Assembly: GCF_008017535.1 (NCBI RefSeq)
Contig: NZ_VRUA01000006.1
Span: 62,001-126,000, forward strand
Direction of reading: 5' to 3'
Source: Ottowia flava
GTDB lineage: Bacteria > Pseudomonadota > Gammaproteobacteria > Burkholderiales > Burkholderiaceae_C
DNA: 64,000 nucleotides
Shown here piece after piece: positions 32,591-37,525 of the stretch. How positions within the stretch are numbered: position 1 is the stretch's first letter; each line of letters opens with the position of its first letter. The translations under genes were made by a program, and so were the position numbers. The notes below the pieces were generated by a model that worked only from the letters and a program-made list of their open reading frames with translations, searched no databases and was not told where the DNA came from.

Positions 32591-33613
32591 ATGAAGCGGG
32601 AGAAAGACAAGGTGCGCCAGGCGCCGTTGGGCTGGCGCGCCACGCTGGCCTTGACGGCGGCGCTGGTGCTGGTGGGCTGCGCCACTGGCCCGCAGGACAG
32701 TGGCGCGCCCGCGCCGTCGTCCGACAGCCCGGCGGTGGCCAGCGGGCCCCAGCCGCCGCAGGTGGTGAATCGCTCCACCTTGCCGAACCTGACGCTCACG
32801 GGGGTAGACGGCTACGGCGAGTACACCTCGCTGGCACTGAAGATCAGCTACGACATCGACGCCCGGGGCGTGTGGCAGCCTGCCGCGGACCAGGAGCCGA
32901 TGCTGAACGAAGGCCATGACCTGGCCAACGACTTCCGTTGCATGGCCCATGGCGCCGGTTACAACCAACGCACCGTGTGGTTCCCCGACACCGGCATCTT
33001 CGTGCGCGGCGCGCAACTGCGCTCGCTGGCCGACGCCAGGGGCGCGGATCGGCCGCTGGTGGTGCTGTCGGAGGGCGACAACGGGTCGCTGTCCGTCGCC
33101 GGGCCGAAAGCGCGTGAACTGGAGTACGGCTACGTGCCGTGCGTGGGCCGCCAGCGCGTCGACGTCGGCCACCGTGCCAGCGGCTACGTGAAGCCGGGTG
33201 ATCGCCTCCAGTTGCGTCCGGCCGGGCGCAACGCCCGACCGGTCACCCTGACGGTGCCACGCACGATGCGCCCGTACGTGATCCTGGACTTTGCCGGCCG
33301 CCCCGCGCGTGCCCTGGTGCCTGCGAACATGGTACTGCTGTCGATCGACTGGCCGAACCGGCGCGCCGTGGCGCAGTACCAGGTGACGGTGGCCATGCAG
33401 CCGCAGGTCGCGCGCGCCGCCTGGATGATCACGCTGCCCGATCCGGGCGCGGTCCAGGACCGCAGTGCGGTCGACATCAACCGCGAGGTCGAACGCTACC
33501 TGGACACCTGCCCCTCGGCCAGCAAGCCGATGGACCCGTGTGCCAACCCGCACGGCCAGTTGCCACCGCTGTTGCGGCCTGCGCCGGCCAGTCGGTCGGT
33601 CAAGGACGTGTGA
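32591..33613 (+). CDS. Secreted lipoprotein, paralogue 1 of 3, unknown function
   Basis: The 340-residue protein has a signal peptide with lipobox LVGC (Cys30), then a Pro/Ser-rich spacer. A conserved domain follows: NRSTLPNLTL, LALKISYDIDARG, DFRCMAHGAGYNQRTVWFPD, YVPCVGRQRV, IDWPNRRAVAQYQVT and a C-terminal YLDTCPSASKPMDPC. Four cysteines (DFRC, PCVG, DTCP, MDPC) recur in the two downstream paralogues. AGGGAGG lies upstream of ATG 32591. No characterised family was recognised. The cysteines suggest an oxidised extracytoplasmic domain. Confidence 0.8.
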   Translation: MKREKDKVRQAPLGWRATLALTAALVLVGCATGPQDSGAPAPSSDSPAVASGPQPPQVVNRSTLPNLTLTGVDGYGEYTSLALKISYDIDARGVWQPAADQEPMLNEGHDLANDFRCMAHGAGYNQRTVWFPDTGIFVRGAQLRSLADARGADRPLVVLSEGDNGSLSVAGPKARELEYGYVPCVGRQRVDVGHRASGYVKPGDRLQLRPAGRNARPVTLTVPRTMRPYVILDFAGRPARALVPANMVLLSIDWPNRRAVAQYQVTVAMQPQVARAAWMITLPDPGAVQDRSAVDINREVERYLDTCPSASKPMDPCANPHGQLPPLLRPAPASRSVKDV

Positions 33614-33863
33614 TCTGCCGTTGCGCCGTGTTGGCGAGGCGTCTTGGCGGCTTTTCGCAAGGTAGATTGACACGAAGCGGGGCGATACTGGCGTCGACCG
33701 GCTGCGCGACACCGGCGCCGTCAGGCCCAGGATCCTCTGCACGCAGCCGCCCATGAGGGCGGTGGCCTGCTCCGCCAGGAGGAGCCATCGCTACGCATGC
33801 GCCGCAGGACGTCCCAACAGGACAGCGACAACAACAGGGAGAAGCAGACTGAACACATCCACC

Positions 33864-34907
33864 ATGAACCGGGGCGGTCTGCGCGCGGGTTGTCGGCGGC
33901 TGTCGGCATCTGCTGCGGTGGCCGCAACCGCGCTGGGCAGCGCCTGCGCGGCACCGGGCAAGGCACCCGCCGATTCGCCCGCAGGCATTCCGTCTGACCG
34001 TGCGGGCGCCACCAGCGCCTCCGCGGCGACCGCGGCATCGGCCGATGCGCCCGCACCCCGTCAGCACCCTCCGGCGGTGGAAAACAGAACGCCGTTCCCC
34101 GACCTCAGCATGGCCGACGCCGACGACCCGGTCTACGGCACTTACGACGCTTTCCGCCTGAAGATCAGCTACGTCATTGACGCCCACGGCCACCTCGGCA
34201 TCGGCGCGGCCGATCCCGAGCCGATGCTGACCGGGGCCGACGACCCTGCCCAGGACCTACGGTGCACCGCTCATGGCGCCGGCTTCAACCAGCGCACCGT
34301 CTGGTACCCGGACACAGACATCTTTGTGGCTGGCGCGCGTCTGGTTGCTGCGCAGTCGGGCGACGGCTCGCCACGGCCGCTGCTGCGCATGGGCTCGCAA
34401 GCGCAGGGCATTGTCACCGCCACCGGCCCGCGCGCGCGCCAGGCCGAATACGGTTACGCCCCCTGCGTCGGCAGCCAGCGTGTGCGCGGCGGCGCGCGTG
34501 CCGAGCGCTACCTGAACGGTGGCGACCGCCTCAGCCTGCGCCCGGACGGCGGCAAGGGCGGTGTGCAGACGATCGTGCTGCCCCAGGACCCCCGGCCGTT
34601 TGCCATGCTGATGTACGAAGGGCGGGCAGAGCGCGCCTTCGTGCCGGCCCAGCTGGTGCTGCTGACGATCGACTGGCCACGTCGCCGCGCCGTCGGCCTC
34701 TACCAGATCACCGTGCCCATCCAGCCGGTGGTGGCCAGCGTGCACTGGAGCACCACACTGCCGCCGTTCACCATCGCCCAGATGCCGCAGATGCAGGCTT
34801 TCAACCGTGCCGTGTCCAGCTACATCGCCACCTGCCCGGTGCCGATGAAGCCCATGGATCCGTGTGCCAACCCGAACCGCCCCTTGCCCGAGATCCTGAC
34901 GCGCTAA
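33864..34907 (+). CDS. Secreted lipoprotein, paralogue 2 of 3, unknown function
   Basis: The 347-residue protein has a cleavable N terminus ending ALGSAC (Cys28), a weaker lipobox than in the other two copies, followed by a long Ala-rich spacer. The domain repeats the family pattern: NRTPFPDLSM, FRLKISYVIDAHG, DLRCTAHGAGFNQRTVWYPD, YAPCVGSQRV, IDWPRRRAVGLYQITVPIQP and ATCPVPMKPMDPC. It is separated from paralogue 1 by 250 bp with no recognisable gene, and from paralogue 3 by 72 bp. ATG 33864 is preferred, and the longer upstream reading lacks a signal sequence. Confidence 0.8.
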   Translation: MNRGGLRAGCRRLSASAAVAATALGSACAAPGKAPADSPAGIPSDRAGATSASAATAASADAPAPRQHPPAVENRTPFPDLSMADADDPVYGTYDAFRLKISYVIDAHGHLGIGAADPEPMLTGADDPAQDLRCTAHGAGFNQRTVWYPDTDIFVAGARLVAAQSGDGSPRPLLRMGSQAQGIVTATGPRARQAEYGYAPCVGSQRVRGGARAERYLNGGDRLSLRPDGGKGGVQTIVLPQDPRPFAMLMYEGRAERAFVPAQLVLLTIDWPRRRAVGLYQITVPIQPVVASVHWSTTLPPFTIAQMPQMQAFNRAVSSYIATCPVPMKPMDPCANPNRPLPEILTR

Positions 34908-34979
34908 CGCAGGACACCTGTGGCCCGTGTGCGCACCCACGCCCGATTTCAATCCCACCAACCTAGGAAGACACCCCCA

Positions 34980-35987
34980 ATGAAGCAGCCAACCCTGCGC
35001 CCCGTCATCACCCTGGGCCTGGCCCTGTGCGCCAGCGCCTGGCTGGCCGGATGTGTCAACGGTCCGAACGCCCATGGCACCACCGGCGGCAGCGCCCCCG
35101 GTCAGGCGCCCAACACCGGCGCTGCCGCGCCGGCCCCGTTCACGCCACCCCAGGTCCACAACACCACACCGTTTCCGGACCTGGGACTCACCAACGACGA
35201 CGCCACCGAATACGTGTCGCTGGGCCTGAAGATCACCTACCAGATCGACGGCCAGAACCGCCTGCGCTACCTGCTCGAAGGGCAGGAGAAGATGATCGGG
35301 ACGGCGCACGACGTCGCCAACGACCTGCGCTGCACCGACATCGGCGGCGGCTTCAACCAGCGCACCACCTTCTTCCCCGACACCGGCATCTTCACCCACG
35401 GCGCCGCGCTGACCGGCGTGCGTTCCGCCCGCGGCCAGGCGCGCCCGCTGCAGCGCCTGCGCGCCGTGGAAGACGGCACCATGGCCGTCACCGGCAAGCC
35501 GGCGCGCGACGTCGAATACGCCTACATGCCCTGCGTCGGCAGCACCCAGGTGCGCGCCGGCGTGCGCACCGACGGCTACCTGCAGCCGGGCGACCAGCTC
35601 ACGCTCAAGCCACCGGGCAAGAACAGCAAGCCGGTGCAGCTCACCCTGCGCCCGGACGTGCGCCCCTTCGTCGTGCTGGCCTACGCCGACGGCACCTCCC
35701 GCGCCTTCGTGCCCGCACGCCCCGTGCTGATGACCGTGGACTGGCCGCGCCGCCGCGCCGTGGTGCAGTACCAGGCCACCTTCCCGATCGCGCCGCAGGT
35801 CGCGCAGGCCATCTGGAGCGGCACCGTGGCGCCCGGCACCGCAGCCGACCCGCACCGGAACGCTTTCAACGACGCGATGCTCCAGTACCTGGACACTTGC
35901 CCGGCACCCACGCAGCCGATGGACGCCTGCGGCATGCCCGGCCGCCCCATGCCCCAGATCCTGCGCGACGAGCCACTGTCGCAGTGA
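34980..35987 (+). CDS. Secreted lipoprotein, paralogue 3 of 3, unknown function
   Basis: The 335-residue protein has a clear signal peptide and lipobox LAGC (Cys25). The domain has NTTPFPDLGL, LGLKITYQIDGQN, DLRCTDIGGGFNQRTTFFPD, YMPCVGSTQVRAG, VDWPRRRAVVQYQATFPIAP and DTCPAPTQPMDAC. By eye, copies 2 and 3 share more with each other in the DWPRRRAV region than with copy 1. TAGGAAG lies upstream of ATG 34980. Its function is unknown. The tandem arrangement points to local duplication. Confidence 0.8.
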   Translation: MKQPTLRPVITLGLALCASAWLAGCVNGPNAHGTTGGSAPGQAPNTGAAAPAPFTPPQVHNTTPFPDLGLTNDDATEYVSLGLKITYQIDGQNRLRYLLEGQEKMIGTAHDVANDLRCTDIGGGFNQRTTFFPDTGIFTHGAALTGVRSARGQARPLQRLRAVEDGTMAVTGKPARDVEYAYMPCVGSTQVRAGVRTDGYLQPGDQLTLKPPGKNSKPVQLTLRPDVRPFVVLAYADGTSRAFVPARPVLMTVDWPRRRAVVQYQATFPIAPQVAQAIWSGTVAPGTAADPHRNAFNDAMLQYLDTCPAPTQPMDACGMPGRPMPQILRDEPLSQ

Positions 35988-36647: not shown

Positions 36648-36706
36648 GTGAAATCGGCTGTTGGCTTTGCAGCTGTCCGCGCGAGCAGCTATTGGAGTTG
36701 TAGCAC
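36648..36706 (+). repeat. Dispersed repeat copy R12
   Basis: Forward orientation, divergent: GTGAAATCGGCTGTTGGC, then TCCGCGCGAGCAGCTATTGG. It starts directly after the TAA of the acetyltransferase gene. Confidence 0.65.
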
Positions 36707-36751: not shown

Positions 36752-37394
36752 GGGAGGCCGGGTCTCGGCCCGGCGGCCGACCCACTTTCTTTTGCTTCGC
36801 CAAAAGAAAGTAGGCAAAGAAAAGGCGACCCCACGTCTGCGACCCCTGCGCTGCGCGCAGGGGCAAACCTGCGTCACGCTTCTGGCGTGGTGGGCCGCAG
36901 AACTCACTTCGCTGCTTTGCAGCTCCGTTCAAACAACCGCGGCCAGTCGGTTCACGAAGCGGCTGCATCCTCCGGTGCAGCCGCCACCCCGCCAGAACCG
37001 CGCCGCAGGCGCAGTCTCAAGGGGAGTTGAACAGCCACACGGGCCATCGCTGCGCTCGGCCCCAACACGCGAGCGCTACGCGCCGCGGACCCAGGGCCGA
37101 GCGAAGCGATGGCCCGTCTCGCCACCCCTCTGGACGTGCCGAGAAGCGCAGAGCGGGCGGTGGGCGTGGGCACCGAAGGATGCCCACGCTTCGTGCTCTG
37201 ACTCGCTGCAGCTGTCTGAGCGGAGCGCTGCAAGCGCAAAGCGAGTTCTGCAGCGCCACCGCCCGATCGAGCATCGCAGGTTGCCCCGCAGCATCGCTGC
37301 GGGGACACGTCCAGTGGGGTCGCCTTCTTTTGCCTTCTTTTCTTGGCGAGACAAGAAAAGAAGGTGCGCCGCCGGGCGCATGTCCCGGCCTTCC
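36752..37394. repeat. ~640-bp nested imperfect inverted repeat, non-coding
   Basis: The outer arms (36752-36832 and 37316-37394) are imperfect reverse complements over about 80 bp. The left ends AAAGAAAAGGCGACCCC and the right begins GGGGTCGCCTTCTTTTG. Each arm also holds its own CT/AG-rich hairpin. Second arms (about 36897-36940 and 37200-37250) share GCAGAACTC/GAGTTCTGC and TTGCAGC/GCTGCAA. A near-perfect inner 22-bp pair lies at 37041-37062 (GGGCCATCGCTGCGCTCGGC..) and 37094-37115. Open frames across it follow the palindromes and look spurious. Together with copies R12 and R13 it accounts for most of the gene-free kilobase 36648-37647. Confidence 0.8.
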
Positions 37395-37474
37395 ACCTCA
37401 AACCCGTCACCGAATAAAAAAAGCACGCGGCACTCGTACAAGCGGCTCCGATTCGTGCGGCACCAAACTACCAA

Positions 37475-37525
37475 TTCCATAGCTGCCCGCGCAAGCAGCC
37501 CCTGGGCCAGAAGCTCAATTCATTC
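37475..37525 (-). repeat. Dispersed repeat copy R13
   Basis: Reverse orientation: AATTCCATAGCTGCCCGCGC, a changed centre, then GGGCCAGAAGCTCAATTCATT. It lies between the large inverted repeat and the universal stress protein gene. Confidence 0.7.

Follow-up and report, generated by a model that had tools for sequence, protein, structure and literature searches.

Results and Discussion

Architecture of the palindrome

The window analysed here is a 64,000-nucleotide stretch of an Ottowia flava contig (NZ_VRUA01000006.1), in which a palindrome occupies positions 36752-37394 downstream of UspA. Three successive genes upstream of the palindrome (32591-35987) look by eye like paralogues. An inverted-repeat search of the window revealed nested inverted pairs on one centre, running from 36768/37377 in to 37034-37062/37094-37122, with the midpoints of pairs I5, I3, I6, I1 and I2 at 37073-37078. 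The innermost pair (37034-37062/37094-37122) is 29 nt long and 90% complementary, and each outer arm carries a separate hairpin (I9, 36781-36814; I10, 37333-37364). A sequence-only reading of this DNA had described nested arms around a shared centre and a hairpin in each outer arm, and both were located where it placed them; however, its arm lengths of 80, 45 and 22 bp are only approximate and the symmetry reaches further out than it claimed, as far as a short repeat whose two inverted copies lie at 36687-36703 and 37468-37484. The same reading had proposed to fold both strands against dinucleotide shuffles. With 20 shuffles per strand, the minimum free energy was -419 kcal/mol on the plus strand (shuffle mean -292, z -16.5) and -448 kcal/mol on the minus strand (shuffle mean -308, z -18.7), and no shuffle reached the energy of the palindrome on either strand (0/20 each). 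The palindrome exists far beyond chance.

The arms 36756-37062 and 37091-37390 align with each other on opposite strands over almost their full length (71%). Therefore, the palindrome is not a single hairpin but an inverted pair of half-elements, two copies of one unit of about 300 bp. Long open frames of up to 286 amino acids are present; nevertheless, Pfam searches of five open frames gave no family near the cut-off (best E 0.018, 15.6 bits against 27), and on this basis a protein-coding gene in the palindrome was rejected, in agreement with the lack of coding potential reported earlier. Neither the window nor seven other loci reached the gathering score of any Rfam family (weak matches went no lower than E 0.074), so no known RNA family was recognised in the unit. 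The features of the locus, with the evidence in brackets, are as follows.

36687..36703, plus strand: left short flanking repeat AGCTATTGGAGTTGTAG, found alone elsewhere too (repeat search)
36756..37062, plus strand: left half-element (A type), written outer to inner; its complement appears to be the strand that folds (aligns with 59 other halves; 10 pair copies in the own genome)
36756..36781, plus strand: outer GC-rich hairpin region H1 of the left half (sequence; conserved in the alignment of halves)
36785..36794, plus strand: left module, pyrimidine strand of the A/T-rich hairpin, CTTTCTTTTG (sequence, module comparison)
36795..36800, plus strand: left module, hairpin loop CTTCGC, which with the next base pairs to the box (TCGCC against GGCGA)
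36801..36810, plus strand: left module, purine strand, CAAAAGAAAG (sequence, module comparison)
36815..36823, plus strand: left module, putative third strand, CAAAGAAAA, mirroring the purine strand (sequence, mirror test)
36824..36828, plus strand: left module, box GGCGA pairing with the hairpin loop (module comparison)
36829..37024, plus strand: left half, multibranched covarying domain, limits approximate (helices 2-9 of the consensus fold)
37041..37062, plus strand: left half, inner hairpin GGGCCATCGCTGCGCTCGGCCC, almost invariant (alignment of halves)
37063..37090, no strand: central spacer of the pair (own copies; about 6-400 bp elsewhere)
37091..37390, minus strand: right half-element (B type), inverted copy of the 300-bp unit (genome matches, alignment)
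37320..37364, minus strand: right module with box, third strand and hairpin, the same apparent pseudoknot on the opposite strand (module comparison, row L001:1852-2151:-)
37468..37484, minus strand: right short flanking repeat, inverted copy (repeat search)

Copies, age and gene context

A search for further genomic copies, also proposed by the sequence-only reading, found the 640-bp stretch 10 times in the own genome (a 4.1-Mb draft of 53 contigs), each copy matching on both strands (20 rows). The other nine copies, one of them truncated, are 83-88% identical to the window copy, and every pair consists of one A-type and one B-type arm. Relatives carry the unit either singly, as halves of about 300 bp, or in inverted pairs whose spacers measure about 6-400 bp, indicating that the repeating unit is the 300-bp half. 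Among the genomes searched as relatives, 31 of 60 had a match to the unit, and so did 143 of 300 genomes of the family, which we take to be the GTDB Burkholderiaceae, in 70 of 115 genera (own genome included both times); the family figure is an undercount because only two candidates per genome were scored. The first 21 bases of the inner hairpin (37041..37062), used as a query, gave matches that include, among those listed, Acidovorax, Giesbergeria, Simplicispira, Ottowia, Pseudorhodoferax, Variovorax, Ramlibacter and Comamonas. The feature is an inverted pair of a dispersed non-coding repeat of the Comamonadaceae and their family. Copy number within the genus is uneven: genome G012 has 41 matches, and 10 of the 28 other genus genomes searched, several of them incomplete, have none.

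The repeat is multi-copy, intergenic where neighbours were called, and old at many loci. Judged by flanking genes, many loci are common to genomes G003, G014 and G023, whose neighbouring proteins are mostly about 72-95% identical, and some of these loci also occur in G010, G019 and G022; turnover of the unit is therefore slow. In 10 comparisons of orthologous loci the arms were 83-92% identical and the aligned flanks 33-81%. The idea that orthologous arms would be much closer than paralogous ones was dropped, as they are only slightly closer and sometimes less close. At the window locus itself, nine relatives have 700 bp or more to compare downstream of UspA, and the element is missing there from every one of them. 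In a tenth relative, G015, an interrupted single half lies on the opposite side of UspA. A clean empty site could not be defined, since the sequence downstream of UspA varies between relatives. No target-site duplication was seen by eye in the flanks of the 10 own copies, whose outer limits are blurred by the independently occurring short repeat.

Interrupted halves were found near position 60-69 of the unit at L265:4446-5903, L255:952-1299, L277:3577-3920 and L247:9359-9705; one interruption is about 1.2 kb long and the other three are about 50 bp at almost the same point. In several Ottowia genomes and another genus, two neighbouring efflux genes, assigned by eye to the RND type, have a pair at the same place between them (L263, L229, L021, L026, L030, L034); its central spacer varies and in some genomes contains other REP-like repeats.

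For 82 single halves, with genes called by our own script, the neighbours were convergent in 41 cases, tandem in 35 and divergent in six; this count leaves out singles below 130 bp, those less than 1.5 kb from the end of a stretch and those with no called gene on one side, and it includes some singles orthologous to one another. The gene on the inner side points at the unit in 60 of the 82 and the gene on the outer side in 57.

A conserved single-strand fold

From 118 arms, 107 of them distinct, 60 halves less than 90% identical were aligned, and a consensus structure with 66 shared pairs was predicted on both strands. Paired cells made up 93.3% of the alignment, against 34.7-46.9% when the partners were slid by one to three columns. 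The structure was derived from the same 60 halves, which inflates the paired percentage but hardly accounts for the double changes to this degree: 48 of the 66 pairs changed on both sides, covariation was 0.437 against 0.047-0.096 for slid partners, and double-change cells numbered 725 against 59-98. Near-invariant unpaired boxes lie between the helices. The single-strand fold of the half-element is conserved by compensatory change, which answers the covariation test that the sequence-only reading had suggested and confirms the compensating differences that it had noticed between the arms. Its further claim, that pairing was selected rather than left by recent duplication, fits the 48 doubly changed pairs; however, DNA template switching can copy one hairpin arm onto the other and so give compensatory change (PMC8794818). 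Since complementary arms can be rebuilt in this way, pairing alone is no proof of selection.

Folded individually, 13 halves gave z values of -1.6 to -7.9, moderately below shuffles, with no clear strand preference, and the consensus fold derived from 35 aligned arms of a single clade was much weaker. A second pseudoknot, ACTCGC/GCGAGT, was looked for by eye in the alignment and abandoned, since the complement is not conserved in A-type arms.

The strand that folds was sought in the wobble cells of the first alignment of the 60 halves, over 78 shared pairs. Cells that would be wobbles on the inner-to-outer strand (AC on the other) numbered 106, against 23 of the opposite kind (GT), with 232 other mismatches; any AC occurred in 34 of the 78 pairs and any GT in 13. 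Counted per sequence, 40 of the 60 halves had more AC, 15 were equal and five had more GT. The A/T-rich hairpin lacked the asymmetry (nine AC, 12 GT). The same count on RNase P RNAs of the family gave 65 GT against 11 AC in favour of the true strand; this control kept 28 RNAs, one empty and one shortened, probably at a contig end, left out sequences of at least 380 nt (2/30), and had its strand checked for four. The bias is about as strong as in the control, so the inner-to-outer strand seems to be the folding one. Watson-Crick cells are also similarly frequent by this count, 92.1% in the half-element and 94.0% in RNase P. However, double changes relative to wobbles stand at 762:129 in the half-element and 247:76 in RNase P; wobble intermediates are thus scarcer, leaving room for DNA copying between hairpin arms. 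The unit has the covarying helices and strand-specific wobble of a structured RNA, features also compatible with folding at the DNA level. Because G.T wobble is tolerated in single-stranded DNA too, the strand asymmetry does not separate the two. We favour the view that the unit is a structured nucleic acid, more likely RNA; the earlier suggestion of a large structured RNA is mildly favoured by the wobble asymmetry.

The outer module

The loop of the A/T-rich hairpin is complementary to a box directly before the CCCC of the main stem. Both vary together among the halves, as TCGCC/GGCGA, CCGCC/GGCGG, CGCAC/GTGCG, TCGGC/GCCGA, GCGCG/CGCGC and others, and a complement of at least 4 bp was found in 148 of 154 distinct modules, a threshold that admits some chance matches. 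The purine linker between hairpin and box is a mirror of the purine strand of the hairpin. The commonest module stems are of the CTTTCTTTTG and CTTTTCTTTG types. Of 39 modules with the core AAAAGAAA, 36 have the linker AAAAGAAA (in backward reading), and the mirror linker matches the cores AAAGAAAA, AAGAGAAA and GAAAGAAA in 18/19, 12/13 and 9/9 modules, respectively; the core AAGAAAAG is accompanied by the linker AAGAAAAC in 15/18. At one register, 1017 of 1164 positions mirror each other (87.4%, 148 modules), against 48-57% at registers one or two steps off and a shuffle maximum of 853 (n=2000). When each distinct combination was counted once, 177 of 264 positions matched (shuffle mean 151, maximum 168). 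The test left out 46 of 337 arms without a perfect hairpin.

A mirror register is not made by ordinary complementarity but is made by a third strand, and together with the loop-box helix it is the signature of an intrastrand triple-helix pseudoknot. On sequence grounds, the outer module has the make-up expected of an intrastrand triple helix that a pseudoknot closes. The sequence-only reading had overlooked the 300-bp half as the repeating unit, and also the place of the outer hairpin in this apparent triple-strand pseudoknot. Telomerase RNA contains a triple helix within an H-type pseudoknot, and a U-rich third strand running parallel to a purine strand forms U.A-U and C+.G-C triples in the major groove. 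Read from inner to outer, the module has a U-rich linker that would run alongside the purine strand in parallel, and this linker may form such triples as in telomerase-type pseudoknots. In principle, the mirror pattern would let either strand form a triplex.

As an independent check, patterns naming the hairpin alone were run over viral contigs. In the class CAAAGAAAAG, the linker CAAAAGAAA was found in 8/8 loci, and in the class CAAAAGAAAG the linker CAAAGAAAA was found in 3/3 new loci, a fourth (L389) being previously known; several of these loci look like near-duplicates and two share one contig. The core of a third class, with three loci, reads the same both ways and is hence uninformative on the mirror. 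Loop-box pairing of at least 4 bp occurred in 8 of 14 viral loci, against a mean of 2.0 and a maximum of 6 in 1000 permutations, and the remaining six had 2 or 3 bp.

A strict pattern of two stem classes matched 9 of 398 Pseudomonadota genomes: the own genome and five others in its family, two that belong to the order but to different families, and one sharing only the class. By eye, both order-level genomes carry a shorter version of the whole half with the same boxes. The module with altered loop and box was found in a Pasteurella multocida record, one of three matched, where two inverted triplex-like modules lie between a DUF484 protein gene and dapF (L392:1400-1950), and in plasmid pILYOP01 of Ilyobacter polytropus (Fusobacteriota), one of six places examined. 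Neither E. coli genomes nor GenBank phages were matched by a 71-bp query or by the other queries tried.

Orientation and replication

The position of dnaA was taken as the origin. Relative to it, single halves are oriented with the fork, their outer end leading, in 14/14 cases in G003, 8/8 in G014 and 9/10 in G023; after orthologous loci were merged by hand, 22 of 23 loci of this clade do so. In 12 tandem gene contexts, the orientation follows replication in 11 and gene direction in four, so gene direction does not explain it. An RNA gene on the folding strand would run head-on to replication at the 22 of 23 loci. G011 showed two of four units with the fork. In G012, whose replichore was judged by local GC skew alone (a proxy that agrees in 26/32 clade windows of clear polarity), 20 of 43 arms agreed with replication, or 16 of 34 where the skew exceeded 0.02, and oppositely oriented singles lie on one 44-kb contig. 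Five further drafts gave agreement in 12 of 20 cases, some at loci orthologous to those of the clade. A universal replication polarity was tested in G012, G008, G010, G015, G019 and G022 and was not upheld outside one clade; we treat it as lineage-specific.

Comparison with known systems

Among the literature matches listed, none describes this 300-bp repeat, and exact sequence strings of the unit were found in none of the papers searched; subscription papers lay mostly outside this coverage. The nearest described system is the G/C-rich intrastrand-triplex repeat PIT/TM (TMECO), a dispersed intergenic repeat of Proteobacteria that sometimes occurs as inverted A/B pairs (PMC4666352). TM is about 34-37 nt long, G/C-rich and of fixed consensus; it forms a triplex as single strands in vitro, footprinting showed no triplex in vivo, and it had no known function in 2015 (PMC4666352). 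As in PIT/TM, our unit has a pyrimidine strand, a purine strand and a mirrored third purine strand within one strand, as well as inverted A/B pairs; the Y-R-R or Y-Y-R order with short loops and a mirror register that defines PIT/TM is present, at 87.4% in register 0. However, the unit lacks the G/C-rich consensus CCCTCNCCC..GGGNGAGGG..GGGNGAGGG. It differs from TM in that its putative triplex is A/T-rich, is closed by a loop-box helix that covaries, and makes up one end of a fold of 300 nt; the passages of PMC4666352 compared contain no loop-box pairing for TM. A G/C-rich TM/PIT-like motif, CCCTCTCCC..GGGAGAGGGTTGGGGTGAGGG, occurs separately beside many of the single halves printed (L228-L263, L285-L299). 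In one clade it lies chiefly on their inner side, and in G012 it often flanks them on both sides.

REP and REPIN elements are often paired in inverted orientation, and ERIC, NEMIS, Correia elements and MITEs are likewise non-coding, dispersed and structured. The unit resembles REP/REPIN in being multi-copy, extragenic and hairpin-bearing and in forming inverted pairs. However, REPs are palindromes of 20-40 bp with a tetranucleotide tag (length from PMC3733652) and the unit is about ten times longer, so that the REP resemblance is confined to the short flanking repeat. This repeat of about 50 bp, AAATCGGCCTCTGGCCCTAC...AGCTATTGAATTTGTAG, is inverted outside the palindrome at the outer ends of most own-genome copies and stands alone elsewhere (window 36687-36703 and 37468-37484; L056, L058, L060-L069, L071, L073-L075, L078). 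Reversed, it reads GTAG and then GGCC..GGCC, like a tagged REP. It has 32 matches at no more than two mismatches, and 17 of the 30 loci returned have no half-element. The only Y1_Tnp match (PF01797) of the own genome is a RAYT-like gene (L080:1462-2160), closely followed by one short repeat of this family; its 3.3-kb locus contains no half-element, ruling out a RAYT-mobilised REPIN as far as the own genome goes. The 300-bp inverted arms of the pairs would serve as the terminal inverted repeats of a MITE, though single arms occur, and the conserved fold of the unit is more elaborate than in MITEs, ERIC, NEMIS or Correia elements. The Betaproteobacterial repeat element BRE, about 90 bp long, often tandem and mostly intergenic, is known from Bordetella and Comamonadaceae, with most copies in Polaromonas (PMC3110155); the unit of about 300 bp is set apart from it by this description, and some sequence overlap is possible. 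The SAM-V (PMC6061858) and guanidine-III (PMC5696562) riboswitches contain H-type pseudoknots with a triple helix. Unlike the unit, these and telomerase RNA are not dispersed repeats, and a comparison of sequence through Rfam alone gave no match.

Proposed function and alternatives

Taken as a whole, the explanation that we consider best, a pair of dispersed repeats with a conserved fold, a triplex pseudoknot and a function as transcript segment, stands about an even chance of being right. The odds are much the same for its core, a structured transcript segment that spreads as a repeat. We propose that the unit may act as a structured segment of transcripts made by read-through from the gene on the inner side, that the triple helix would cap the outer (3') end against exonucleases, and that an inverted pair could serve both genes of a convergent couple. 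The best counter-argument is that the neighbours show no clear preference for reading the unit in the folding sense: if the triple helix were a 3' cap, inner genes should point at the unit more frequently than outer ones, which is hardly the case (60 against 57 of 82), and a 3'-UTR function judged by gene direction was set aside for this lack of asymmetry. More tentatively, and with somewhat less than an even chance, the unit would represent a class of structured RNAs not named before, whose 3' end carries a covarying U.A-U triple helix like that of telomerase RNA, present in several to tens of copies from Burkholderiales to Pasteurellaceae, Fusobacteriota and viral contigs, with inverted pairs in many lineages putting the functional fold on both strands.

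The unit could instead be a selfish non-autonomous repeat, moved by an enzyme not yet named, its pairing kept by hairpin recognition or template switching with no host benefit. We find this possible but doubtful. The uneven copy number in the genus (41 in G012, none in 10/28 others searched), the absence of the element at the window locus in 9/9 relatives with UspA and at least 700 bp downstream, and the Y1/RAYT-like gene in the own genome would all fit it, and template switching can yield compensatory change (PMC8794818). It is harder to reconcile with the many loci common to species whose flanking proteins are mostly about 72-95% identical. Moreover, the Y1 gene has the short repeat but no half-element within its 3.3-kb locus, the flanks of the 10 own copies show no target-site duplication by eye, and template switching does not obviously predict the covariation of loop and box or of the mirrored linker. 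The non-autonomous transposon suggested by the sequence-only reading shares this balance, right about dispersal but at odds with old loci common to several species and with single arms. A plainer possibility, that the units are ordinary bidirectional terminators or REP-like stabilisers of mRNA 3' ends with no special tertiary fold, draws on the bias of singles to convergent genes and 3' ends. It seems improbable to us, since a multibranched fold of 300 nt, near-invariant unpaired boxes and a mirrored linker exceed the needs of a terminator, and the flanks printed have no U tract after the outer hairpin.

Action as DNA, of the same kind as PIT/TM, would mean that a strand exposed at the fork folds and affects replication, recombination or repair. 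The order of pyrimidine strand, loop, purine strand, short loop and third purine strand is that of TM class II (PMC4666352), TM-like motifs adjoin many of the single halves printed, and pairing is near-strictly Watson-Crick (92.1% of cells; RNase P 94.0%). Orientation tracks replication in G003 (14/14), G014 (8/8), G023 (9/10) and the tandem contexts (11/12). Against this, G012 gives no such signal (20/43; 16/34), nor do the five drafts (12/20) or G011 (2/4), and for TM itself footprinting found no triplex in vivo (PMC4666352). We consider a role as DNA unlikely on balance; the nucleoid or recombination site of the sequence-only reading gains from the 31 of 32 singles that follow replication in one clade and loses by the 20 of 43 arms of G012 by local skew. 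Neither a DNA-level role nor plain selfishness would conflict with the transcript-segment reading.

Should the fold prove real, sequence alone would have brought to light a triple-helix pseudoknot that recurs in many bacteria and whose three strands all have compensatory variants in nature, an unusually rich data set for the rules of triplex formation. It would also give a handle on the purpose of intrastrand-triplex repeats such as PIT/TM. As RNA, the unit would be a bacterial counterpart to triple-helix 3'-end elements; as DNA, it would be a testable element for fork-linked folding.
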